From assembly GCA_027443745.1 (NCBI GenBank), contig DAIAZB010000517.1, positions 1 through 10,457 of the forward strand: a DNA stretch of 10,457 nt, written 5' to 3'. Source of the stretch: Thiomonas sp. (GTDB taxonomy: Bacteria > Pseudomonadota > Gammaproteobacteria > Burkholderiales > Burkholderiaceae). Numbering within the stretch: position 1 is the stretch's first letter; each line of letters begins with the position of its first letter. The translations under genes and the position numbers were made by a program. The notes beneath the pieces were generated by a model. The model searched no databases. It was not told the origin of the DNA and saw only the letters and a list, made by a program, of their open reading frames with translations. Positions 1 to 10,457 of this stretch are shown piece after piece.

Positions 1-981
1 ATCGGCGGCGTGCTGCTGGCGCTGCGCATGAAGGGCGAGAGCGCCGAGGAACTCGAAGGCTTCACCCGGGCCGTGCGCGCCTCGCTTCCGGCCATCACAC
101 CGGGGCGGCCGGTGGTGGTGGTGCCCAGCGTGAACGGCGCGCGGCGCCTGCCCAACCAGGTTCCGCTGCTGGCCCTGTTGCTGCGCCAGCACGGCATCGC
201 GGTGCTGGTGCTCGGCACCGAGCAGAACGACGGCCGGTTGCACACGGCACGCATCTGGAGCGCGCTGGGCCTGCATCTCGCGGGAACCAGCATCCAGGCA
301 CAAGCGTTGCTGAATGCAGGCGAGGCGGTCTATCTCGACCTCGGCTGCATCAGTCCGCAACTGGCCGCGCTGCTGCAATGGCGCAGCGTGCTGGGCGTGC
401 GCAACGCCGGCCACAGCGTGGTGAAGTTGCTGGCTCCCGTCGCCGGTCCGAGCCTGCTGCTCGCCAGCTACACCCACCCGGAATACGCCGTGCTGATGCG
501 CGACGTGCTGCAGCGCCTGGGCCAGCCCGCGCTGCTGATGCGCGGCTGCGAAGGCGAGGCGGTGGCCCACCCGCACCGTGCGGGTGAACTGCTCTACATC
601 GACGCCGCCGGCGGGCTGCGCATGGAGCCGGCCACGGAGGCAACGCCAGCCGAAACCGCCCTGCCGCTCTGCGGTACCGACCTGGCCGCCACCCTGGGCT
701 GGATTGCCGATGTGCGCGCCGGCCGCAAGCCGGTGCCGAGACCTCTGGCGCGCCAGGCCGAGAGCATTGCCGCGGCCCTGCAGCCGGCACGGGCTGGCGG
801 CTCGGCAGGCATGGGCGCTTGCGGCGCCTCCGCCGGTGACGGCAGGGACGACCCGGAAACCCACCCCGCGCCCATCCGGGGCATCAGCAGCTCGCCTGCC
901 GGGACCGGGTCATCGCCTGCCGCCGGTCAAGCCGATGATGCCGGTCGCGCCGGTCCGGCCGCGCCCCTCCTGCAAGCCTGA
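1..981 (+). CDS. ybiB: YbiB/TrpD2-like DNA-binding protein, 5'-truncated
   Basis: The reading frame is open from base 1 with no start codon of its own, so the gene begins outside the window; by comparison with E. coli YbiB about 40 N-terminal residues are missing. The visible start (IGGVLLALRMKGE) is the end of the helical N-terminal domain shared with anthranilate phosphoribosyltransferases. It is followed by YbiB-type blocks: VPSVNGARRLPNQ, VRNAGHSVVKLLAP, SYTHPEY and LLMRGCEGE. YbiB proteins are TrpD paralogues that bind nucleic acid and are not thought to be tryptophan biosynthesis enzymes. The recognisable fold ends near base 780. The last 60 or so residues are Gly/Ala/Pro/Ser-rich, low in complexity and unlike the E. 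coli C-terminus. cobA follows after 25 bases, consistent with one transcript. Family assignment is firm; the cellular role is not known from sequence. Confidence 0.88.
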   Translation: MGGVLLALRMKGESAEELEGFTRAVRASLPAITPGRPVVVVPSVNGARRLPNQVPLLALLLRQHGIAVLVLGTEQNDGRLHTARIWSALGLHLAGTSIQAQALLNAGEAVYLDLGCISPQLAALLQWRSVLGVRNAGHSVVKLLAPVAGPSLLLASYTHPEYAVLMRDVLQRLGQPALLMRGCEGEAVAHPHRAGELLYIDAAGGLRMEPATEATPAETALPLCGTDLAATLGWIADVRAGRKPVPRPLARQAESIAAALQPARAGGSAGMGACGASAGDGRDDPETHPAPIRGISSSPAGTGSSPAAGQADDAGRAGPAAPLLQA

Positions 982-1006
982 ATCCTGGAGCCGCACCTTG
1001 CACGAC

Positions 1007-1933
1007 ATGCCCACCACAACAGACTTCGCAGCTGCGGGTTCAACCCGCGACACCGCACCCCGGGTTCACCTCGTCGGCGCCGGCCCCGGCGACCCGGAAC
1101 TGCTCACCCTCAAGGCGGTGCGCGTGCTGCAGCAAGCCAGCGTTGCGCTGGTGGACGATCTGGTCCACGACGGTTGCTTGCGGCATCTGCCCGCCTCCTG
1201 CCGCGTCGTGCATGTGGGCAAACGGGGCGGCTGCGCCAGCACGCCGCAGGTCTTCATCGAGCGCCTGATGGTGGCCGAAGCGTGGCGCGGCGAGCGCGTC
1301 GTTCGCCTCAAGGGCGGCGACCCGCTGCTGTTCGGTCGCGCCGGCGAAGAAATCGCCGCGCTGCGCGCCGCCGGCATCGCCGTGGAGGTGGTGCCCGGCA
1401 TCACCGCCGGCGTTGCCGCCGCGGCGGCGTCCGCGGTCTCGCTCACGCACCGCGACCACGCCTGCGGCGTGGCCTTCGTCACCGGTCATCCCGCAGCCGG
1501 CAACGGCGTGGACTGGGTCGCGTTGGCGCGTAGCGGATTGACCCTGGTGATTTACATGGGCGTGTCCACCGCCGCAGCCATCCAGCAGGCATTGCTCGAC
1601 GGCGGCCTGCCGGCGTCGACACCGGCTCTGCTGGTGCAGTCCGCCAGCAATCCGGACGCGCGGCGGCTGCGCACCCGCCTGGGCACCCTGGCCACAAGCC
1701 TCGCCGCCAGCGGCCTGGCCAGCCCCTGCGTGATGATCATCGGCAACGTCGCCGAGGGGCTGATGCAGGTCGATGCACAACCGCGAAGTCACGCGGCGGC
1801 TGGGCAACAGCCTGGAAACCGGGCCCGGTCCGAGCCGCCGCGCGGCCGGCTGCCAGAGCCGCTGGACGAACCATTGCATGCATCACTGGACGAGCCGCAA
1901 CGCCAAACGCGCCGCGCGAGCCGGGTCGCTTGA
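1007..1933 (+). CDS. cobA: Uroporphyrinogen-III C-methyltransferase (SUMT)
   Basis: This enzyme transfers two methyl groups from S-adenosylmethionine to uroporphyrinogen III, giving precorrin-2 for siroheme or cobalamin. Visible family marks, numbered from ATG 1007, are the SAM-binding loop GAGPGD (residues 24-29), VRLKGGDP (99-106), the VPGITAG block and the C-terminal MIIGNVAEG. It is a stand-alone SUMT without the CysG dehydrogenase/chelatase domain. TTG 998 is an alternative start: it lies 7 bases after GGAG (987-990), a better spacing than ATG 1007 has (16 bases). The conserved fold ends near residue 255. The last ~50 residues are an Arg/Pro/Glu-rich tail that includes a 36-bp segment duplicated, in another reading frame, in the next gene. 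Position next to ybiB suggests it supplies siroheme for an upstream assimilatory nitrite reductase, which is inference. Confidence 0.93.
1781..1816 (+). repeat. 36-bp exact direct repeat, copy 1 (in cobA 3' end)
   Basis: The 36 bases starting CCGCGAAGTC and ending GCCTGGA recur exactly at 2070-2105, 289 bp downstream. In the cobA frame this copy encodes residues from about Pro259 ([12 protein letters not shown]). In a different frame it reads [12 protein letters not shown], the same peptide the activator gene encodes at residues 41-52. The second reading is part of a conserved GAF-domain helix, so copy 2 is probably the original and this copy the derivative. Confidence 0.97.
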
Positions 1934-1950
1934 TCGGCCCACAATCCACA

Positions 1951-3660
1951 ATGCAGTCGGCCGCAACCGCAGCGTTGGAACATCCACTCGAGCCTTCGAC
2001 GGCTGCCCCGGCCGCAGCCTTCCTGCGCCTTGGCATGGAACGGCTGGACTCGGCCGAAAAGCTGCTGTTCCGCGAAGTCACGCGGCGGCTGGGCAACAGC
2101 CTGGAGCCGATGCTGGTGCTGCGCGAAATGCTGCACCTCATGTCCGAGCTGCTGGGCCTGAACCGTGGCCGCGTGCTGCTGCCCGAAGCCGATGGCACGC
2201 TGGCCATTGCCTGCGCCTACGGCCTACGCACGGAAGAAATTGCACGCGGACGCTACGCCCCGGGCGAGGGTATCAGCGGCCGGGTGATGCTGCGCGGCGA
2301 AATCGCCATCGTGCAGGACATCGACACCGAGCCGCTGTACCTGGCGCGCGCCGTACCGCGCGAGCGCCTGCCGCAGGAAACCGTGTCCTACATCGCCCTG
2401 CCCATTCCCGGCGAAGTCCGGCCTGCGGGTGTGCTGGCGGTACACCGGCTGCGCCGGCGCCAGCGCTCGCTGGCCGAAGACCTGGCGGTGCTCGACTCCA
2501 TCGCCACCCTCATCGGCCAGGTGTTGCGGCTCAACCGCCTGGTGGCCGAGCGCACCGCGCGGCTGGAGGCCGAGAACACCGAACTCAAGCTGGCGCTGCA
2601 GAGCCGCGCGACGAATGTGGCGTCCTACGGCATCGTCGGCCAGGCGCCCAGCCTGCTGCGCGCGGTGCGCAAGCTGGAGCAGGCCGCCGCAACCGACGCC
2701 ACGGTGCTGCTGCTGGGCGAGTCGGGCACTGGCAAGGAGCTGTTCGCCCGCGCCATCCACCAGCAGAGCGCGCGCCGCGACGCGCCGTTCGTGCGCGTAA
2801 ACTGCGCCGCCATTCCCGATACCTTGTTCGAGGCCGAGCTGTTCGGCCACGAGAAGGGCGCCTATACCGGCGCGACCAGCGCGCGTGCCGGGCGCTTCGA
2901 GCAGGCGCACCATGGCACGCTATTCCTCGACGAGATTGGCGATCTGCCGCCAGCGATGCAGGTGAAGTTGTTGCGCGTGCTGCAGGAGCGCGTGATCGAG
3001 CGCCTGGGATCGCAACGCGAAATTGCGGTGGACGTGCGCATCGTCGCCGCCACCCACCAGGACCTGCAGGGACTGATGGCCGCGCGGCGCTTTCGTGAAG
3101 ACCTGTATTTCCGGCTGAACGTGGTGCCCATCGTGCTGCCCGCGCTGCGCGAACGGCCCGATGACATACGCCATCTGATCCGGCATTTCCTGTTCCAGCT
3201 CAACGAGCGCCACCAGCGCAGCGTGCGCCTGGCGCCGGCCGGCATGAACAGCCTGGCGGCCTACCCCTGGCCGGGCAATATCCGTCAGCTCTACAACGTG
3301 CTGGAACGCATCGTCGTGCTGTGCGAAGCCGACCTCGCGGATGAAGCCCTGGTGGACGGCGCGCTCATCAGCGAGGTGCAGGGCCAGGTGCTGGAGGCCG
3401 TGCCAGCGCGTGACGCACGGCGCACCGGCGCCACGCTGGCGGACATGCACGCGGCGGCGGCCGGCGGGCAAAGCGACGCCGGTTCCACCATCCGCCCCTA
3501 CCACGCGGTGATGCAGGACGAGCGCGAGGCCATCGCCGAGGCCATTCGGCGCACCGGCGGCAACAAGTCACAAGCGGCACGGGTGCTGGGACTGACCCTG
3601 CGCCAGCTCAACTACCGGCTGGCCCGCTTCGGCATGGCTGGCAGCCTGACAAAGCGTTGA
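1951..3660 (+). CDS. Sigma-54-dependent activator, GAF-AAA+-Fis HTH (NifA/CynF-like)
   Basis: This is an enhancer-binding protein that uses ATP to open sigma-54 RNA polymerase promoters. From ATG 1951 (569 aa) it shows an N-terminal GAF sensor domain (~35-200) resembling that of NifA, including [12 protein letters not shown]; a short coiled-coil-like linker ([19 protein letters not shown]); and a AAA+ domain with Walker A GESGTGKE (256-263), GAYTGA (303-308, Tyr in place of the usual Phe of the sigma-54 contact loop) and Walker B FLDE (Asp327-Glu328). A Fis-type helix-turn-helix lies at 538-558 ([20 protein letters not shown]). There is no phosphoreceiver domain, so control is likely by a ligand or partner acting on GAF. 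The CxxxC linker of oxygen-sensitive NifA proteins is not seen. TTG 1930 overlaps the cobA stop and ATG 2035 lies further in; no strong Shine-Dalgarno decides between them. It sits directly before a sigma-54 promoter and a cyn operon, as cynF does in Pseudomonas pseudoalcaligenes, so it probably controls those genes. Confidence 0.93.
2070..2105 (+). repeat. 36-bp exact direct repeat, copy 2 (in activator gene)
   Basis: This is the second copy of the element at 1781-1816. Here it encodes residues 41-52 of the activator ([12 protein letters not shown]), which lead into the first helix of the GAF domain and fit NifA-type proteins. The block contains CGCG-N6-CGCG, a weak dyad, but nothing else suggests a protein-binding site. 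Confidence 0.97.
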
Positions 3661-3688
3661 CACATTGTTGACAAATGGTGAGGACATG
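3656..3688 (+). promoter_or_regulatory. Putative upstream activator site: tandem GTTGACA repeats
   Basis: GTTGACA occurs at 3656-3662 and again at 3667-3673, exactly 11 bp apart (one helical turn). Each is followed by a similar MATK-like tail (CATT, AATG), and a degenerate third unit, GTGAGGACATG, occupies 3678-3688 in the same register. The block is centred about 70 bp upstream of the sigma-54 promoter, a suitable place for an enhancer-binding protein. The first unit overlaps the activator's stop codon. The NifA consensus TGT-N10-ACA was not found, so the bound protein is assigned by position only. Confidence 0.45.
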
Positions 3689-3705
3689 TTTTCCTTGAAA
3701 AAGCA

Positions 3706-3718
3706 TAAGCTCATGATT
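3706..3718 (-). promoter_or_regulatory. IHF-like site
   Basis: On the minus strand the 13 bases read AATCATGAGCTTA, matching the IHF consensus WATCAANNNNTTR except at one position. The site lies in the most AT-rich part of the window, between the tandem repeat block and the sigma-54 promoter, where IHF commonly bends DNA in sigma-54 systems. Short consensus matches occur by chance, so support is mainly positional. Confidence 0.35.
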
Positions 3719-3735
3719 TAAAAGTATTTTTCTCC

Positions 3736-3751
3736 TGGCATGAATGCTGCC
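3736..3751 (+). promoter_or_regulatory. Sigma-54 (-24/-12) promoter
   Basis: TGGCATGAATGCTGCC fits the sigma-54 consensus TGGCAC-N5-TTGCW with the invariant GG and GC in exact register; the differences are outside those pairs. Counting from the -12 C at 3750, transcription should begin near 3762. That predicts a leader of about 116 bases before the OsmC-like gene and rules out the in-frame ATG at 3755 as its start. The gene for a sigma-54 activator lies immediately upstream, and an AT-rich spacer precedes the element. Confidence 0.82.
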
Positions 3752-3801
3752 TAGATGATGTGTCCCTCAAGGAAACGCAAGGCCACCCCAAGTTTTCTTG
3801 A

Positions 3802-3839
3802 CCCCCACGAGGGGCGGGTCGGCAAGCCGACCCTGGGGG
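3802..3839 (+). promoter_or_regulatory. Leader with mutually exclusive hairpins
   Basis: The leader contains a perfect 7-bp stem, GGGTCGG (3816-3822) with CCGACCC (3827-3833), closed by a CAAG loop. The C run at 3802-3806 can pair either with GGGG at 3811-3814 (ACGA loop) or with GGGGG at 3835-3839, which would enclose the 7-bp hairpin in a larger structure. The two pairings of the C run exclude each other. No U tract follows, so this is not an ordinary intrinsic terminator. The ribosome binding site (3865-3870) lies 26 bases beyond. Whether the RNA switches is unknown. Confidence 0.4.
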
Positions 3840-3877
3840 CACTCAACACCCACAAGCCAACACCAGGAGAACGCTTC

Positions 3878-4432
3878 ATGAGCCAGACCGCCACGCAGAA
3901 AGTCACCTGCCTCTATCCCGATCTGCTGCGCCCCATCGACAAGGATGGCCTGGGCCTGTTGGCCACCAAGGGCCGGGCCAACCCGAAAAACATCGTCACG
4001 CTCAAGGCCAGAACGGTGTGCGAAGGTCAGTTCCGCAACCTCACCTACATCCGCAATCTGCCGGCCTACGTCATCGACGAACCGCCGCATCTGCTAGGCG
4101 AAGACACCGCACCGAACCCGTCGGAGGCGACACTGGCTGCGCTCGGCGCCTGCCTCTCGGTGGGTGTCCATGCCAACGCCACGTCGCGTGGCGTGGCGTT
4201 GTCCAAACTGGAGTTAGAGCTTGAAGGCGACATCAACGTCACCGCCGTATGGGGCGTGGGCGATCTGGACCCGGCAAAGAAGCTGGGCTTCACCGACATT
4301 CGCGTAAAGATCACTGCCGAGGGCGATGCGCCGCGCGAGGTGCTCGACGCCATCATCGCCAGCGCCGACCACTGGTCGCCGGTGGCCAACACCCTGCGCA
4401 ATCCGGTGAACGTGGCCGTGACGGCGGCCTGA
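3878..4432 (+). CDS. OsmC-like protein, single-cysteine type
   Basis: A 184-residue protein of the OsmC/Ohr fold, beginning at ATG 3878 with AGGAGA (3865-3870) 7 bases upstream. The central helix carries the first family cysteine (GACLSVGVHANA, Cys92) and the C-terminal block reads HWSPVANTLRNPV. In true OsmC and Ohr peroxidases this second block holds the resolving cysteine (CPVS or CPYS). Here Ser167 stands in its place, so a two-cysteine thiol peroxidase reaction is unlikely. No signal peptide or membrane segment is seen, so it should be cytoplasmic. It is the first gene after the sigma-54 promoter, with an ACAD-like flavoprotein 38 bases downstream. Family placement is solid; the substrate is unknown. 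Handling of a reactive sulfur or organic intermediate would suit the neighbours but is speculation. Confidence 0.9.
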   Translation: MSQTATQKVTCLYPDLLRPIDKDGLGLLATKGRANPKNIVTLKARTVCEGQFRNLTYIRNLPAYVIDEPPHLLGEDTAPNPSEATLAALGACLSVGVHANATSRGVALSKLELELEGDINVTAVWGVGDLDPAKKLGFTDIRVKITAEGDAPREVLDAIIASADHWSPVANTLRNPVNVAVTAA

Positions 4433-4470
4433 GGCTGCAGCGTTCAAGCCTCGCTTCCAGGAGACCGCCC

Positions 4471-5676
4471 ATGACCACCTTGACCCTGGCACGCCCCCAG
4501 GCTGCCACCATGCCGCTGCTGCCCCTTGCCGAGCAGTCTCCGCAGCACCCGCTGGATGATGGGCTGAGTGCCCTGCAGCAACTCGTGACCCAGGTGCTGG
4601 CGCCGCAGGTTCTGGCCATCGATCTGGCAGCCGCCTACCCGGAAGCCTTCCTGCACGCCATGGGTGATGTCGGCGGCTTTCGTGGCACTGTGCCAACCGA
4701 GTTCGGCGGCAACGGCAGGGGGCTGCCGCAGGTGATCGAGGCCATGGCGCTGGTGTCGCAAACCTGTCTGTCCACCGGCTTCCTGGTGTGGTGCCAGACC
4801 GCCTGCGCTCGCTACATCGCCATGAGTGACAACGCCGAGTTGAAGCGCACGCTGTTGCCGCGCATCGCCAGCGGCACATTGCTGGCGGGAACCGGCTTGT
4901 CGAACACGGTGAAGTCGTGCGATGCGGTGGAAGATTTCCGCCTCTCGGCCAAGCGTGTGGATGGCGGCTATGTGGTGAATGGCGTGCTGCCCTGGGTGTC
5001 CAACCTAGGGCCTGACCATGTGTTCGCCACCGGCTGCCCGGTGGAAGGAGCGGGTCCTGGCGACGACGGCCTGGCCTTCCTGCTGGTGGAGTGCAAGGCC
5101 CCCGGTTTCAAGCTGGTGGACTGCGCCCATTTCATGGCCATCGACGGCACCCGCACCCTGGCCTGCCACTTCAAGAGCACCTTCGTGGCCGATGGCATGG
5201 TGCTGTCGCACCCCGGCCAGTCCAAGGCCTATGTGCGGCGCATCAAGCCGGGCATGATCCTCGGCCAGATGGGCATGTGCCTGGGCCTGACGCAAGCCTG
5301 CATCGGCTTGATGCGCCAGTCCAACCGCACCCACGCGCATGTGAACCGCTATCTCGACGACCAGGAGGACGAACTCGCCGCCGAACTCGCGGTGCTGCGC
5401 GCCGGCACCACTGCTGCCGCGCAGACGCTGCAGGCCAACCCGCTGGCCGACATCGTGCTCGACATCCTGAAGCTGCGGCTGGCCGGCGGCGAGCTGGCGC
5501 TGCGCGCGGCGCAAAGCGCGCTGTTGCACCTGGGCGCCAAGGGTTACCTGCAAAAAAGCCCGGCGCAACGCCGTGTGCGCGAGGCGTATTTCGTGGCCAT
5601 CGTCACCCCGGCGACCAAGCATCTGCGGCGCGAAATCGCCCGGCTGGAAAGTGATCAGGCCGTATGTGCTGCCTGA
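4471..5676 (+). CDS. Acyl-CoA-dehydrogenase-like flavoprotein, atypical active site
   Basis: A 401-residue protein with the overall layout of acyl-CoA dehydrogenases: an N-terminal helical domain, a beta domain with the flavin-side block GGYVVNGVLPWVSN, and a C-terminal four-helix domain ending GAKGYLQKSPAQRRVREAYFVAIVTPATKHLRREI. The start at ATG 4471 has AGGAG (4459-4463) 7 bases upstream. The position that holds the catalytic glutamate in many ACADs (IYEGTSEIQR) aligns by eye with IVTPATKHLR, placing Thr379 there. The protein may therefore not dehydrogenate an acyl-CoA; the same fold serves flavin-dependent monooxygenases such as the DszC/SfnC group. It lies in an operon with a rhodanese, a rubredoxin and a cyanate transporter, which suggests oxidation of a small S- or N-containing compound. 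Neither FAD nor FMN use nor the substrate can be decided here. Confidence 0.87.
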   Translation: MTTLTLARPQAATMPLLPLAEQSPQHPLDDGLSALQQLVTQVLAPQVLAIDLAAAYPEAFLHAMGDVGGFRGTVPTEFGGNGRGLPQVIEAMALVSQTCLSTGFLVWCQTACARYIAMSDNAELKRTLLPRIASGTLLAGTGLSNTVKSCDAVEDFRLSAKRVDGGYVVNGVLPWVSNLGPDHVFATGCPVEGAGPGDDGLAFLLVECKAPGFKLVDCAHFMAIDGTRTLACHFKSTFVADGMVLSHPGQSKAYVRRIKPGMILGQMGMCLGLTQACIGLMRQSNRTHAHVNRYLDDQEDELAAELAVLRAGTTAAAQTLQANPLADIVLDILKLRLAGGELALRAAQSALLHLGAKGYLQKSPAQRRVREAYFVAIVTPATKHLRREIARLESDQAVCAA

Positions 5677-5800
5677 CTTTGCCACCTGAAACTGCACTCT
5701 CCACCCACAAAGCCCGACAACGCATCCGCCCCACGGCACGCCCCATTGCACCCACGGCATGCCACTTCCCTGCCGTCCCGAGTCAACCCAGGAGTCCATC
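5677..5800 (+). other. C-rich intergenic spacer with short imperfect repeat
   Basis: This 124-base gap is the longest inside the operon. By hand count its first ~113 bases have roughly three C for each G. A 13-mer recurs 21 bp apart with one mismatch (CCCACGGCACGCC at 5730, CCCACGGCATGCC at 5751). No stem-loop terminator, convincing sigma-70 promoter or sigma-54 element was found. Such C-over-G stretches resemble Rho loading regions. The end of the gap carries the rhodanese ribosome binding site AGGAG (5790-5794). Confidence 0.5.
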
Positions 5801-6670
5801 ATGAGCGAACGCATTCTGATTTCCCCCACCGAGCTGAGCACCGCGATGCAGGCCGAAACCATGGTCATCATCGACACCCGCGACCCCGAGGCCTACACCA
5901 AGGGCCATCTGCCGGGCGCGGTGAATCTGCGTGACATCTTCACCTATCTGGCCACCTCCACACCCGAGGGCCGCAAGGAACTGGAGCAGCGCTTCGCCGA
6001 TGAGTTCGGCGCTGCCGGCCTGTCGGGCGCGGAGACCGCCGTGCTGTACGAGGAGTCGATGAACAGCGGCTTCGGCCAGTCGTGCCGCGGCTACTTTCTG
6101 CTCACCTACCTCGGCTACCCCAAGGTGAAAGTGCTGCATGGCGGCTACGCGGCCTGGATTGCCGCTGGGATGCCGGCGAGCTTGGACGTTCCGGCTCCCA
6201 AGGCCGCGAGTTTCCCGCTCAAGTCCAGCGCAGCCTCGGTGATGATCGACAAGCAGCAGATGCTGGCCGCGCTCGGCGACCCATCCATCGTCATCCTCGA
6301 CGTGCGCGACGTGGACGAATGGGTCGGCACCAGCTCCTCGCCCTATGGCAAGGACTACTGCCCGCGCAAGGGCCGCATTCCCGGCGCGCGCTGGCTGGAG
6401 TGGTACCGCATGATGAAGCCTTCGCAGCAGGGTCAGATGTTCAAGGAGCCGGAAGAGATTCTGGCCGAGTGCGCCACCGTGGACATCACGCCCCAGTCCA
6501 CCGTCTACCTCTACTGCTTCAAGGGCGCGCGCGCTTCCAATACCTACCTGGCCTTGCAACAAGCCGGTGTGAAGCAGGTGAAGATGTATTTCGGCTCGTG
6601 GAACGAATGGTCGCGCGACCCGTCGCTGCCGATCGAGTCCGGCATGCCGGACATGGCAGCCGCCGCTTGA
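5801..6670 (+). CDS. Two-domain rhodanese-like sulfurtransferase
   Basis: A 289-residue tandem rhodanese that moves sulfane sulfur between donors and acceptors. ATG 5801 has AGGAG 6 bases upstream. Domain 1 (~6-130) has [19 protein letters not shown] and VLHGGYAAW, but its active-site position reads YEESMN (around Glu84-Glu85) with no cysteine, so it should be inactive, as in classical two-domain rhodaneses. Domain 2 (~150-280) has LDVRDVDEW, a short insert with [13 protein letters not shown], and the active loop CFKGARA with catalytic Cys239. Lys241 and Gly242 match the CRKGVT loop of thiosulfate sulfurtransferases more than the CGSGVT loop of mercaptopyruvate enzymes. No export signal is evident. 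Rubredoxin follows after 13 bases. Classical rhodaneses make thiocyanate from cyanide and thiosulfate, so a link to cyanate metabolism through thiocyanate or cyanide is reasonable but unproved. Confidence 0.92.
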
Positions 6671-6683
6671 GTCAGGAATGCCC

Positions 6684-6902
6684 ATGAACCTCGAACCAAC
6701 GCCAACTGCAGCCCTGGCCGAATCCGCCGCCAGCGCCGCGCAGCCATGGGTCTGCATGGTCTGCGGGCTGGTCTACGACCCGGCCCTGGGCCTGCCCGAT
6801 GACGGCATTCCCGCCGGCACACGCTTCGAGGACATTTCAGACGACTGGTACTGCCCCGACTGTGGCGTAACAAAGGCGGACTTTGAGCCGCTGGTGTTTT
6901 GA
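6684..6902 (+). CDS. Rubredoxin
   Basis: A 72-residue one-iron electron carrier. The two iron-binding pairs are CMVCG (Cys24, Cys27) and CPDCG (Cys57, Cys60), with the family's GLVYDP and DDWYCPDCG blocks. ATG 6678 is also in frame, but the only Shine-Dalgarno-like sequence (CAGGA, 6673-6677) directly touches it, while ATG 6684 lies 6 bases away, so 6684 is preferred. About 20 Ala/Thr/Pro-rich residues precede the rubredoxin core and have no visible function. No rubredoxin reductase is encoded in the window. In this operon it could pass electrons to or from the ACAD-like flavoprotein; that is inference from position. Confidence 0.95.
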
Positions 6903-6950
6903 GCCGAGCCACGTTCTTCACCCCTCCCTGTGACGCCAAGCCCGACCGCC

Positions 6951-8324
6951 ATGAGCCATCACGACGACCCATTCGATTCCGCTTCACACTTCGGGCCCTG
7001 CGGCTGCGGTCGCCACGCCAACCAAGCCGAACACGCGGCTGCCACGACCGCCATCAACCCCTGCGATGCCGAGCAGCTCACACTTCGCACGCTGGAGACA
7101 GCGGTGATGCGCGCGATCTTTCCCGACGACTCGCAACGCCGTCGCTTCTTGCGTGCGATCGGACGCAACACCGCGCTTGCGGCGCTGGCGCAAGTGGTTC
7201 CGTTCGGCGCCTTGCAGGCCATGGCGCAGGAAGGCGGCGGCGCGCTGGAGAAAACGGACCTGAAAATCGGCTACCTGCCCATCACCTGCGCCAGCCCCAT
7301 CATCCTCGGCCAGGCCAATGGCTATTTCGCGCAGGCCGGGCTGAAGGTCGAACTGCTGAAAACACCAGGCTGGGCACTGGTGCGCGACAAGCTCATCAAC
7401 GGCGATTTCGACGCCTCGCAAATGCTTGCGCCCATGCCGCTGGCCATCAGCATGGGCGCAGGCTCGCAGCCCGCCGAGACCTATGCCGCCTCGATGGACA
7501 ACCTCAACGGCAGCGCCATCACCCTGAGCATGAAGCACAAGGACAAGCGCGACCCGCGGCTGTGGAAGGGCTTCCGGCTGGCCATTCCGTTCGACGCCTC
7601 CATCCACAACTTCCTGCTGCGCGCCTATCTCGTCCAGCATGGCGTGGACCCAGACCGCGACGTGCAACTGCGTGTCATGGCGCCGCCCGACATGCTGGCC
7701 AATCTGGCGGGCGGCAACCTCGACGGCTTCATCGTCGCCGAGCCGTTCAACCAGCGCGCGGTGTACGAGGGCATCGGCTTCATCCATCTCCTGACCTTGG
7801 ACCTGTGGCGCGGCCACCCCTGCTGCGCCTTTGCCCTGAAAGGCGATTTCGTGCGACAGAATCCGAACACCTTTGCCGCGCTGTACCGCGGCATGCTCAA
7901 GTCGGCCACTTTTCTCAACGCCCCCGCCAACCGCAATGCGGTGGTCAACACTTTGTCGGCGCCGCAATACCTCAACCAACCCCAGATCGTGGTCAAGCAG
8001 GTGCTCACCGGCACCTATGCCAACGGCCTTGGCGTGGTGAAAACTGCGCCCGACCGCATCGCCTTCCAGCCCTTTCCCTGGCCGTCGATGGCGGTGTGGA
8101 TTCTGACGCAGATGAAACGCTGGGGCTATGTGAAGAGCGAGGTGAACTACAAGGGCATCGCAGAAAAAGTCTTCCTCGCCACCGACGCGCGCAATGCCAT
8201 GCGCGCGCTGGGCATGGCGGCACCGGCGCACGATATGGAGGACGCCACCATCCTCGGCCAACACTTCGACCCACACCAGCCGGCTGCCTATCTCAAGAGC
8301 CTTCCCACCGTGTCCAAGACCTGA
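6951..8324 (+). CDS. cynA: Cyanate/nitrate-type ABC transporter substrate-binding protein, Tat-exported
   Basis: A 457-residue periplasmic binding protein of the NrtA/CmpA/SsuA group. From ATG 6951 it has a short Cys/His-rich leader with CGCGRH (Cys17-His22), then VMRAIFP, then a twin-arginine signal RRRFL (63-67) followed by a hydrophobic stretch to FGALQAMA. The mature part begins near LKIGYLPITCASPIILGQANGYF. Blocks such as HPCCAFAL and QVLTGTYANGLG are typical of NrtA-like proteins. GTG 6930 and ATG 7107 are possible starts; 7107 has a good GGAGA (7094-7098) and would give a compact Tat signal. I chose 6951 because, from memory, the CxCGRH leader is conserved in proteobacterial relatives. 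Substrate is taken as cyanate because the operon ends in cynS, as in known cynABDS clusters; nitrate, bicarbonate or thiocyanate cannot be excluded. Confidence 0.88.
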   Translation: MSHHDDPFDSASHFGPCGCGRHANQAEHAAATTAINPCDAEQLTLRTLETAVMRAIFPDDSQRRRFLRAIGRNTALAALAQVVPFGALQAMAQEGGGALEKTDLKIGYLPITCASPIILGQANGYFAQAGLKVELLKTPGWALVRDKLINGDFDASQMLAPMPLAISMGAGSQPAETYAASMDNLNGSAITLSMKHKDKRDPRLWKGFRLAIPFDASIHNFLLRAYLVQHGVDPDRDVQLRVMAPPDMLANLAGGNLDGFIVAEPFNQRAVYEGIGFIHLLTLDLWRGHPCCAFALKGDFVRQNPNTFAALYRGMLKSATFLNAPANRNAVVNTLSAPQYLNQPQIVVKQVLTGTYANGLGVVKTAPDRIAFQPFPWPSMAVWILTQMKRWGYVKSEVNYKGIAEKVFLATDARNAMRALGMAAPAHDMEDATILGQHFDPHQPAAYLKSLPTVSKT

Positions 8325-8333
8325 GACCGCGCC

Positions 8334-9185
8334 ATGCCTACCCTGCCTTCCCGCGCGTTCTGGGCGTCGACCCTGCTCAGCCTGGTGCTGTTCGCCGCCC
8401 TGCTCGGCGTCTGGCAACTCGCCACGCTGCCCAAAGCGTCGAGGCTGCCCGCTGGGGTCAGCGCACAATACGCCGCGCTGATGGGCCAGGGTGCGGTGAA
8501 GTCCGGCGGCTTCCCGACGCCGGCGCAAGTGGGCGCCACGTTCGTGAAGGAACTGCGCAACCCGTTCTACGACCACGGCCCGAACGACAAGGGCATCGGC
8601 CTGCAGTTGGCGTATTCCCTGGAGCGGGTGGTGGCGGGCTTCGGCTTGGCGGTGCTGGTGGCGCTGCCGCTGGGCTTCCTCATCGGCATGGTGCCGCTGC
8701 TGCAGCGGGCGCTCAACCCGTTCATCCAGGTGCTCAAACCCATCTCGCCGCTGGCGTGGATGCCCATTGCGCTCTACACCCTGAAGAACGCCAACGTTTC
8801 GGGCGTGTTCGTCATTTTCATCTGCTCCATCTGGCCCATACTGGTGAACACTGCCTTCGGCGTGGCCTCGGTGCGGCGCGACTGGCTGAACGTGGCGCGC
8901 ACGCTGGAAGTGGGCGGCCTGCGACGGGCCTTCCAGGTGGTGCTGCCGGCAGCGGCGCCCACCATCCTCACCGGCATGCGCATTTCCATGGGCATCGCCT
9001 GGCTGGTGATCGTCGCGGCCGAAATGCTGGTCGGCGGCACCGGCATCGGCTATTTCGTCTGGAACGCGTGGAACAACCTTGCCCTGTCCAGCGTGGTGTT
9101 CGCCATCGTGCTCATCGGCGTGGTGGGCATGCTGCTGGACCTGCTGTTCGCGCGTCTGCAGCACCTCGTGACGTATGCGGAGTGA
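8334..9185 (+). CDS. cynB: ABC transporter permease (CynB/NrtB type)
   Basis: A 283-residue inner-membrane permease with an N-terminal membrane segment (~9-29) and a core of about five more, fitting the SsuC/NrtB family. The EAA loop that docks the ATPase is at 186-205 (NVARTLEVGGLRRAFQVVLP), with the conserved glycine and terminal LP. The start ATG 8334 is 9 bases after the cynA stop and has no clear Shine-Dalgarno sequence, suggesting translational coupling. The insert between the first and second membrane segments (~30-85, including PAQVGATFVKEL) is usual in NrtB proteins. It should form the membrane channel for the binding protein encoded upstream and the ATPase downstream. Confidence 0.92.
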   Translation: MPTLPSRAFWASTLLSLVLFAALLGVWQLATLPKASRLPAGVSAQYAALMGQGAVKSGGFPTPAQVGATFVKELRNPFYDHGPNDKGIGLQLAYSLERVVAGFGLAVLVALPLGFLIGMVPLLQRALNPFIQVLKPISPLAWMPIALYTLKNANVSGVFVIFICSIWPILVNTAFGVASVRRDWLNVARTLEVGGLRRAFQVVLPAAAPTILTGMRISMGIAWLVIVAAEMLVGGTGIGYFVWNAWNNLALSSVVFAIVLIGVVGMLLDLLFARLQHLVTYAE

Positions 9186-9189
9186 TGCG

Positions 9190-10188
9190 ATGACCCTGTC
9201 TTTCCTCCGCGTTGAAGGCCTGGCGAAGCAGTATGTCGACACCAACGGCAAGCCCGGTCCAATTGTGTTCGACGATGTTTACTTCACCATGGCGCGCGGC
9301 GAGTTCGTCGCCATCATCGGCCATTCCGGCTGCGGCAAGACCACCATCCTCAATGTCCTCGCCGGGCTGGAGCAGGCCAGTGGCGGCGCCGTGTTCATGG
9401 ACGGGCGCGAGCTGAGCGGCCCCTCGCTCGACCGCGGCGTGGTGTTCCAGAGCCACGCGCTCATGCCCTGGCGCACGGTGCTGGGCAATGTGACCTTGGC
9501 CGTGGCCTCACGCTGGCCGCAGTGGAGTCGCGAACAGGTGCGCGAGCACAGCCTGAAGTTTCTCGACATGGTGGGCCTGGCCGCAGCCGCCGAGAAGAAG
9601 CCACACCAACTCTCGGGCGGCATGAAGCAGCGCGTGGGCATCGCCCGCGCCTTCGCTATCAGGCCCAAGATGCTGCTGCTCGACGAACCCTTCGGCGCGC
9701 TGGACGCACTCACGCGCGGCACCATCCAGGACGAACTGCTGGCCATCGTGCGCGCCACGCAGCAGACCGTGTTCATGATCACGCACGACGTGGACGAAGC
9801 CATCCTGCTGGCCGATCGCATTCTGCTCATGAGCAACGGCCCGCATGCCAAGATTGCTGAGATGGTGGCCATCACCATGCCGCGCCGCCGCAGCCGCGAA
9901 ACCCTGCACCACGACCCGCAGTACTACCGCATCCGCAACCATCTGGTGGACTTCCTCATGCACCGAGCGAAGACGCCACCACAGTCGCTGCCGGGCTACG
10001 GCCCGCGCCAGGTGCCACTGCTCAGCCCGGGAATGGATGAGGCCATGTCCGCTGCCACCGCTGCTGCGGTGCAGGATGCGGACCACCCGCTACACGGCCA
10101 CCCAACGAGCGGCCAGGCAGCCAGCGGCATGCCCATGGCCGCGCTGCATCTGGTGCCCGCCGCCGCGCATCAAGCGCGCGTGGCATGA
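9190..10188 (+). CDS. cynD: ABC transporter ATP-binding protein (CynD/NrtD type)
   Basis: A 332-residue ATPase that energises the importer. All core motifs are present: Walker A GHSGCGKTT (44-52), Q-loop FQSHALMPW, signature LSGGMKQ (141-147), Walker B LLLDEP (162-167), D-loop ALD and switch His199 (ITHDVDEA). ATG 9190 has GGAG (9179-9182) 7 bases upstream and lies 4 bases after the cynB stop; the in-frame ATG 9175 would overlap cynB and lacks a ribosome site. The NrtD-like core ends near residue 257. A tail of about 75 residues follows, rich in Pro, Ala, His and Gly, with no recognised fold; it is not the NrtA-like regulatory domain found in NrtC. Confidence 0.93.
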   Translation: MTLSFLRVEGLAKQYVDTNGKPGPIVFDDVYFTMARGEFVAIIGHSGCGKTTILNVLAGLEQASGGAVFMDGRELSGPSLDRGVVFQSHALMPWRTVLGNVTLAVASRWPQWSREQVREHSLKFLDMVGLAAAAEKKPHQLSGGMKQRVGIARAFAIRPKMLLLDEPFGALDALTRGTIQDELLAIVRATQQTVFMITHDVDEAILLADRILLMSNGPHAKIAEMVAITMPRRRSRETLHHDPQYYRIRNHLVDFLMHRAKTPPQSLPGYGPRQVPLLSPGMDEAMSAATAAAVQDADHPLHGHPTSGQAASGMPMAALHLVPAAAHQARVA

Positions 10189-10238
10189 ATTTTGCACTCG
10201 GCGACACACGCAGTTTCCCCATCGACCCAGGAGCCCCC

Positions 10239-10457
10239 ATGACCCGCAATGACGTGACCGAAGCCATCATCGCCGCCAAGATTGCCAAGGGCCTGAGCTG
10301 GGCCGACGTGGCCAAGACCGTGGGCCAAAGCAAGGAATGGGTCACGGCCGGCTGCCTCGGCCAGATGACCTTCGACGCCGGGCAGGCCGCCATCATCGGG
10401 AGGTTGTTCGACCTGCCGGCGGACGCGGTGAAGCTGCTGCAGGTGGTGCCGTACAAG
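10239..10457 (+). CDS. cynS: Cyanase (cyanate hydratase), 3'-truncated
   Basis: Cyanase decomposes cyanate with bicarbonate to carbon dioxide and carbamate, which breaks down to ammonium and CO2. The window holds the first 73 residues, the helical DNA-binding-like N-terminal domain, with the characteristic blocks KGLSWADVAKTVGQSKEWVTA, CLGQM and LLQVVPYK. A full-length enzyme is about 150 residues; the catalytic Arg, Glu and Ser lie in the missing C-terminal half, so intactness cannot be checked. ATG 10239 has AGGAG (10229-10233) 5 bases upstream. It lies 50 bases after cynD with no terminator between, so it is probably the last step of the same operon. Confidence 0.95.
   Translation, partial: MTRNDVTEAIIAAKIAKGLSWADVAKTVGQSKEWVTAGCLGQMTFDAGQAAIIGRLFDLPADAVKLLQVVPYK

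Follow-up and report, generated by a model that had tools for sequence, protein, structure and literature searches.

A four-gene redox module in a Thiomonas cyanate operon recurs beside cyanase genes and may produce cyanate, possibly from thiocyanate

Introduction

A close described relative of the operon studied here is the cynFABDS cluster of Pseudomonas pseudoalcaligenes CECT5344, which encodes a sigma-54 activator, an ABC cyanate importer, and a cyanase (PMC6627978). We analyzed a 10,457-nucleotide stretch of Thiomonas sp. DNA (GenBank assembly GCA_027443745.1, contig DAIAZB010000517.1, positions 1 to 10,457, forward strand; hereafter the window), whose cyn operon resembles that cluster in these components and also carries genes for an OsmC-family protein, a flavoprotein of the acyl-CoA dehydrogenase (ACAD) fold, a rhodanese, and a rubredoxin. 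In CECT5344, cynF is divergent and lies 268 bp upstream of cynA (PMC6627978), not directly before cynABDS as the initial annotation of our window had it, whereas the regulator gene of the window is co-directional with its operon. The CECT5344 paper does not mention acyl-CoA, rubredoxin, or OsmC (the terms searched, rhodanese not being among them), and it describes no module genes. Among the papers listed by searches of an open-access collection, which lacks preprints and most subscription papers, none dealt with this gene set.

We tentatively favor the reading that these four genes represent, in the window, a recurring module that produces cyanate from a substrate containing sulfur, carbon, and nitrogen (S-C-N), most likely thiocyanate. 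With less confidence, we suggest as a possibility that the ACAD-like protein represents a new class of rubredoxin-reduced thiocyanate oxygenase, converting thiocyanate into cyanate and delivering sulfane sulfur to a single-cysteine OsmC carrier and the rhodanese.

Parts of this proposal have precedents. The flavin monooxygenases DszC and SfnB share with the module flavoprotein the ACAD fold, an organosulfur theme, and the proposed use as an oxygenase. Monooxygenases of the DszC and SfnB type use a flavin reductase, whereas we propose rubredoxin for the module ACAD. NorW-like chains likewise combine an NADH-dependent reductase with a rubredoxin, but the proposed acceptor here is the ACAD-like protein, and the module reductases score under the NorW cut-off. 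In the cyanate pathway of Thioalkalivibrio, thiocyanate dehydrogenase (TcDH) yields cyanate and sulfane sulfur from thiocyanate and cyanase then acts, much as we propose here (PMC5328954, PMC5778177). By the same descriptions, TcDH is a copper enzyme that passes electrons to cytochrome c, in contrast to an ACAD-fold flavoprotein supplied from NADH through rubredoxin.

Results and Discussion

The module recurs beside cyanase genes

Pfam and NCBIfam models, together with a reading of the open frames, bear out the layout first described for this operon: the OsmC, ACAD, rhodanese, and rubredoxin genes lie between a sigma-54 activator gene and cynABDS, all co-directional and with no gap above 124 bases. 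The genes of the module and the cyn cluster are as follows.

3878 to 4432, forward strand: single-cysteine OsmC-family protein (PF02566)
4471 to 5676, forward strand: flavoprotein of the ACAD fold that lacks an acid at the usual catalytic-base positions, proposed as a rubredoxin-fed oxygenase (profile, structure, and alignment comparisons)
5801 to 6670, forward strand: two-domain rhodanese, active loop CFKGAR with Cys239 (PF00581, two stretches)
6684 to 6902, forward strand: rubredoxin (PF00301)
6951 to 8324, forward strand: cynA, NrtA/CmpA-like substrate-binding protein (PF13379)
8334 to 9185, forward strand: cynB, ntrB-like permease (TIGR01183, above cut-off)
9175 to 10188 (alternative start 9190), forward strand: cynD, ntrCD-like ATPase (TIGR01184, above cut-off)
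10185 to 10457, forward strand: cynS, cyanase, truncated where the window stops (cyanase models over fragment residues 19-91)

The intergenic gaps from the OsmC gene to cynB measure 38, 124, 13, 48, and 9 bases, with 4 bases or overlaps thereafter. The window thus combines an NrtABC-like ABC importer with a cyanase, as expected of a cyn cyanate-assimilation cluster. The truncated cynS scores under the cut-off of the cyanase model, which is expected of a fragment, and the rest of it is probably the start of contig C96 in the window's own genome (G000).

Relatives of the module were collected with the ACAD sequence, so every locus was recruited through that gene, and many of the loci are related. 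A first set of 30 loci came from a search of genome contigs. An order-level search returned 25 of 399 genomes (E ≤ 1e-80) and a phylum-level search 16 of 398 (E ≤ 1e-70), 4 of which were already known from the other searches. A plasmid collection held 28 records with the ACAD, 18 of them Pseudosulfitobacter, and 8 stretches were read. Relatives occur in Alpha-, Beta-, and Gammaproteobacteria. Our summary covers 73 loci (the window included, locus L045 of genome G212 left out) and counts features within 9.5 kb of the ACAD gene, some contigs ending earlier. Of these loci, 53 carry an OsmC gene (OsmC-type), 17 an AhpD-like gene (AhpD-type), and 3 are untyped. The OsmC-type loci include rubredoxin in 36, rubredoxin or its reductase in 39, rhodanese in 18, the regulator in 36, CynA in 41, an SsuA-like protein in 8, and cynS in 38. 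The AhpD-type loci include rubredoxin in 10, an SsuA-like protein in 10, CynA in 1, and cynS in none.

The association with cyanase is also visible at the level of whole genomes. Across the order, cynS is present in 90 of 399 genomes; it occurs in all 14 typed OsmC-type genomes against 76 of the other 385 (Fisher P = 4e-10, not corrected for relatedness). These 14 genomes span 9 genera, six of them belonging to a single genus. The ACAD gene lies within about 10 kb of cynS in 12 of the 14 and is unlinked in G005 and G169; for the genome of the window this count rests on the window, as that genome's own contigs break inside cynS. The untyped genome G212 also has the ACAD, CynA, and cynS. Genomes were available for 13 of the first 30 loci, with cynS in 7/7 cyn-type genomes, in 0/4 AhpD-only genomes, and in the single genome that has both types. 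Twelve further genomes from the phylum search, all OsmC-type, have cynS in 11 cases and within 10 kb in 8 (raw counts). The gene-neighborhood comparison suggested by the initial annotation therefore gave a positive answer: the module recurs beside cynS in relatives. A chance insertion of the four genes was rejected given these recurring neighborhoods and the linkage to cynS.

The flavoprotein lacks the catalytic base of acyl-CoA dehydrogenases

The window flavoprotein has the ACAD fold, and its best-named relative is a Thiomonas protein at 89% identity; for the ACADs on alphaproteobacterial plasmids, the identity is about 38-43%. The usual catalytic base of the family sits at the position of either MCAD E376 or IVD E254, and we placed both positions on the module protein by alignment to five other dehydrogenases. 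In the two corresponding regions, 257-268 and 374-384, none of the 73 ACADs has a Glu or Asp. Thr379-Pro380 is found in 73/73, and position 262 is Phe or Met. With the catalytic base missing throughout, we rejected an ordinary acyl-CoA dehydrogenase.

The protein scores 26.5 of 850 bits against the DszC model and 23.5 of 430.9 against SfnB, far under both curated cut-offs, and the best 50 matches of its similarity searches included no DszC-type entry, which does not by itself prove absence. Very distant as it is, this similarity is among the points in favor of an alternative that we regard as unlikely, namely that the ACAD cleaves or desulfurizes organic S-C-N compounds (isothiocyanates, organic thiocyanates, or thioamides) and cyanate is one downstream product. 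SsuA-like proteins in 8/53 OsmC-type and 10/17 AhpD-type loci (the four proteins checked scored under the SsuA_fam cut-off) and the AhpD-type relatives without cynS point in the same direction. On the other hand, the NrtA-like CynA, present in 41/53 OsmC-type loci, points to a substrate that is a small inorganic anion, and no gene for handling the organic remainder was recognized, though most neighbor clusters of the first set remained without an identification.

Rubredoxin and NADH:rubredoxin reductase

The initial annotation had the flavoprotein and rubredoxin act together in oxidation. This picture changes in that many relatives add an NADH:rubredoxin reductase. All 42 rubredoxins have the four cysteines in two CxxC motifs. 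Eleven loci in the first set have a separate reductase gene, and the one member scanned (L029) has the NADH:flavorubredoxin reductase NorW as its best match, at 299 of 392 bits and thus under the cut-off. Seven loci (L076, L084-L087, L114, and L115) have rubredoxin and reductase joined in a single open frame; in L084, L085, and L087, Pfam finds both domains in a single protein whose start overlaps the end of the ACAD gene. The reductase tally in the 73-locus summary counts a weak match that lies 9.1 kb away from the ACAD gene of L003. Since the reductase genes neighbor the module and fuse with rubredoxin, electrons probably run from NADH through the reductase and rubredoxin to the ACAD.

In L114 (10026-12477), the fused gene is followed by an MBL-fold protein, resembling persulfide dioxygenases by eye, and a TauE/SafE-like frame that scores under its cut-off. 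A DUF1852 protein and methionine synthase pair lies upstream of the Acetobacter ascendens module (L084, 1-1939).

OsmC, rhodanese, and the handling of sulfur

The OsmC proteins of the module have an invariant Cys92 (34/34). The position of the second cysteine, as aligned to the peroxidase-like OsmC 9wo1, is Ser167 in 34/34, with a stray cysteine one residue ahead of it in L004. We therefore rejected a two-cysteine OsmC/Ohr peroxidase. Eight OsmC-type loci (L008-L011, L013, L016, L017, and L029) have a second, shorter AhpD-like gene between the OsmC and reductase genes.

These features bear on the idea of a protection module, in which OsmC, rubredoxin, and the reductase would detoxify peroxides or reactive cyanide species arising from cyanate use while the ACAD has an unrelated role. 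OsmC and AhpD are both related to peroxidases, the AhpD11 type occurs in 0/53 OsmC-type loci as if the two were interchangeable, and the second AhpD-like gene fits as well. We nevertheless consider this explanation very improbable, as the second cysteine of OsmC is absent throughout and the ACAD is the constant part of the module (partly by design, the search having been seeded with it).

All 19 module rhodaneses carry the CFKGAR active loop, of the CxxGxR type, and the window protein shares 85% identity with both copies of the Thiomonas type and 64-71% with the 16 others, more than its ACAD shares with those of the alphaproteobacterial plasmids. Where a rhodanese accompanies OsmC and the ACAD, cynS lies in the same stretch in L106-L112 and not in L081, L082, or L105, the genome of the last (G682) having cynS elsewhere. 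In a change from the initial annotation, the rhodanese, present in 18/53 OsmC-type loci, was rejected as a core component; its occurrence with the ACAD even where cynS is not nearby fits an S-C-N substrate that would give sulfane sulfur as well as cyanate.

Transporters vary around the module

The CynA protein of the window has a Tat-like leader by eye, and NrtC, NrtA, and CmpC are its nearest relatives among solved sequences. In L085, a Marinobacter shengliensis plasmid, the gene order is SsuBAC-regulator-OsmC-ACAD-reductase-cynS, and in L107 it is SsuBAC-OsmC-ACAD-rhodanese-cynS-reductase; neither stretch has cynABD. Against SsuA_fam, the SsuA-type protein of L085 reaches 94 bits, under the cut-off of 163.5. 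Extra or solo CynA genes adjoin the ACAD gene in L014, L021, L022, L065, and L067, and are also found in L106 and L114. In a CynA tree rooted at the midpoint, the solo or second CynAs of L021, L057, L065, and L067 fall outside two large groups, L014 falls within one of these, and L022 joins L008/L009; the L021/L057 fork is unstarred, and the L020 row is a fused frame of 984 residues. Two tandem CynA-type binding proteins followed by a single cynB were seen in L057 (12750-15663).

The varying importers and extra CynA copies suggest that a compound different from cyanate is imported. We favor an imported precursor because a sulfonate-type ABC importer replaces cynABD beside cynS in L085 and L107. 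The earlier proposal of intracellular cyanate production from such a precursor is therefore partly supported, with regard to import and to the cynS linkage, while the substrate itself is a matter of interpretation.

The same evidence bears on cyanide, the ACAD being in that case a cyanide oxygenase that yields cyanate and the rhodanese a parallel cyanide sink. Oxygenases that oxidize cyanide to cyanate are known and provide a precedent. HCN diffuses, however, so this explanation leaves the importer changes and extra CynA copies unaccounted for. Rhodanese is described as acting on cyanide (PMC5778177), which together with the cynS association speaks for cyanide, but P. pseudoalcaligenes uses cyanide without a cyanate intermediate, and no such module is described there (PMC6627978). 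Overall, we find cyanide as the substrate quite improbable.

AhpD-type relatives

Ten loci (L023-L027, L031, L068-L070, and L074) carry a second type of this ACAD family, accompanied by an AhpD/CMD-like protein and by an importer of the SsuBAC kind, with no cynS nearby. By eye, CooS/CooC genes follow in L024, L026, and L027, and an O-acetylhomoserine sulfhydrylase is nearby in L024, L025, and L027. Small genomes, Neisseria-like by eye, hold an AhpD-ACAD-rubredoxin set in L071-L073, L075, L077, and L078; those six stretches yielded no gene for cynS, CynA, or an SsuA-like protein.

A sigma-54 regulator and promoter precede the operon

The regulatory features upstream of the module are as follows.

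1930 to 3660, forward strand: GAF and AAA sigma-54 activator, NifA-like, CynF-like by position (PF01590, PF00158, PF02954)
3736 to 3751, forward strand: probable sigma-54 (-24/-12) promoter, TGGCATGAATGCTGCC, score 12.5 of 15; site TGGCATGAATGCTGC at 3736-3750

The activator scores 477.6 of 528.85 bits against the nifA model, under the cut-off, and a close relative of it (at least 400 bits) lies near the ACAD gene in 36/53 OsmC-type loci. It is probably the regulator of the operon. Taken alone, the promoter site is weak, a two-mismatch scan of the window giving 17 matches against 20.1 expected by chance. It starts 75 bases past the regulator gene, an offset that is identical in Thiomonas delicata (L003). 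We scanned up to 320 bases after each regulator gene (217 in the window) with 300 base shuffles per region, and in 29 of 34 regions there was a -24/-12 element whose shuffle frequency did not exceed 0.01, at offsets of 64-135 bases; the others were the window itself (0.023), L007 (0.043), L004 and L005 (0.15 each), and L076 (0.97). The promoter of the window is supported by this conservation of the element across regulator-downstream regions. Scans on the divergent side found an element in 8 of 12 regions (L058-L065) and none in L057, L066, L067, and L076.

Farther upstream lie a YbiB-like gene (PF02885; name by eye) and a gene for a CobA-type tetrapyrrole methylase (PF00590), an arrangement shared with T. 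delicata.

Proposed mechanism and its weighing

Under the thiocyanate reading, an ABC transporter of the CynABD or sulfonate type would bring an S-C-N anion, most likely thiocyanate, into the cell. A rubredoxin reductase, whose gene adjoins the module in many relatives but is absent from the window, would take electrons from NADH and pass them on through rubredoxin. The ACAD-like protein would receive them at its flavin, activate O2, and cleave the C-S bond. The cyanate released would be converted by CynS into NH3 and CO2, and the sulfur would move to thiol carriers, namely the single-cysteine OsmC and the rhodanese. Where present, the rhodanese could also turn stray cyanide back into thiocyanate. 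Expression would be driven from the sigma-54 promoter under the GAF activator. The sequences show which genes make up the module, how they are conserved, their link to cynS, the fusions of rubredoxin with reductase, and the altered residues; the substrate, the use of O2, the electron acceptor, and the flow of sulfur are our inference.

Thiocyanate is the simplest substrate because it would yield both cyanate and sulfane sulfur, suits an anion- or sulfonate-type importer, and would need reducing power and presumably O2. Among the candidates put forward in the initial annotation, it is the best fit and cyanide alone a poorer one, and organic thiocyanates or isothiocyanates are possible, especially for the AhpD-type loci. 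The ACAD is present in Methylobacterium and Methylorubrum, which include M. thiocyanatum, a species that reportedly grows with thiocyanate or cyanate as the sole nitrogen source (by a title cited in PMC5328954). A search of G000 for an NHase-alpha type subunit (PF02979), as in thiocyanate hydrolase, gave no match, and the control was equally silent.

Several observations weigh against this reading. The top structural matches of the ACAD are dehydrogenases. Neither rubredoxin nor reductase lies within 9.5 kb in 14/53 OsmC-type loci, and the window has no reductase gene, its genome offering two weak relatives at 33-35% identity. Rhodanese and cynS are found in just 18 and 38 of the 53, respectively. 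G591 is OsmC-type without cynS, and cynS is present in 0 of 10 AhpD-type order genomes; either cyanate is not an obligatory product for the whole ACAD family, or the AhpD-type substrate differs. Of 111 Methylobacterium genomes, 108 carry cynS, a near-universal presence that makes co-occurrence with the ACAD (found in 20) uninformative there, and just 5 of the 20 ACAD genes lie within 10 kb of cynS, plus one beside a cynS match split in two pieces (G790, C1:885545-885741). Finally, the presence of cyanase is no proof of a cyanate route (PMC5328954).

Some of these points favor a general organosulfur/nitrogen scavenging flavoprotein, co-regulated with the cyn genes under nitrogen limitation but having no part in cyanate chemistry. 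Sigma-54 control and the AhpD-type members without cynS are consistent with it, as are the ACAD genes away from cynS (in G005, G169, and 14 of the 20 Methylobacterium genomes) and the lack of cynS in G591. Co-regulation alone, though, fails to explain cynS in every one of the 14 OsmC-type order genomes, or its retention next to a different importer in L085 and L107, and we think this explanation improbable.

Implications

If the thiocyanate reading is true, the ACAD-like protein would add an enzyme of a new type for making cyanate from thiocyanate, with an electron chain that can be tested, and single-cysteine OsmC proteins could have a role as sulfur carriers. The module would explain why redox genes accompany some cyn clusters, and it may be relevant to the treatment of cyanide- and thiocyanate-containing waste and to nitrogen and sulfur cycling.

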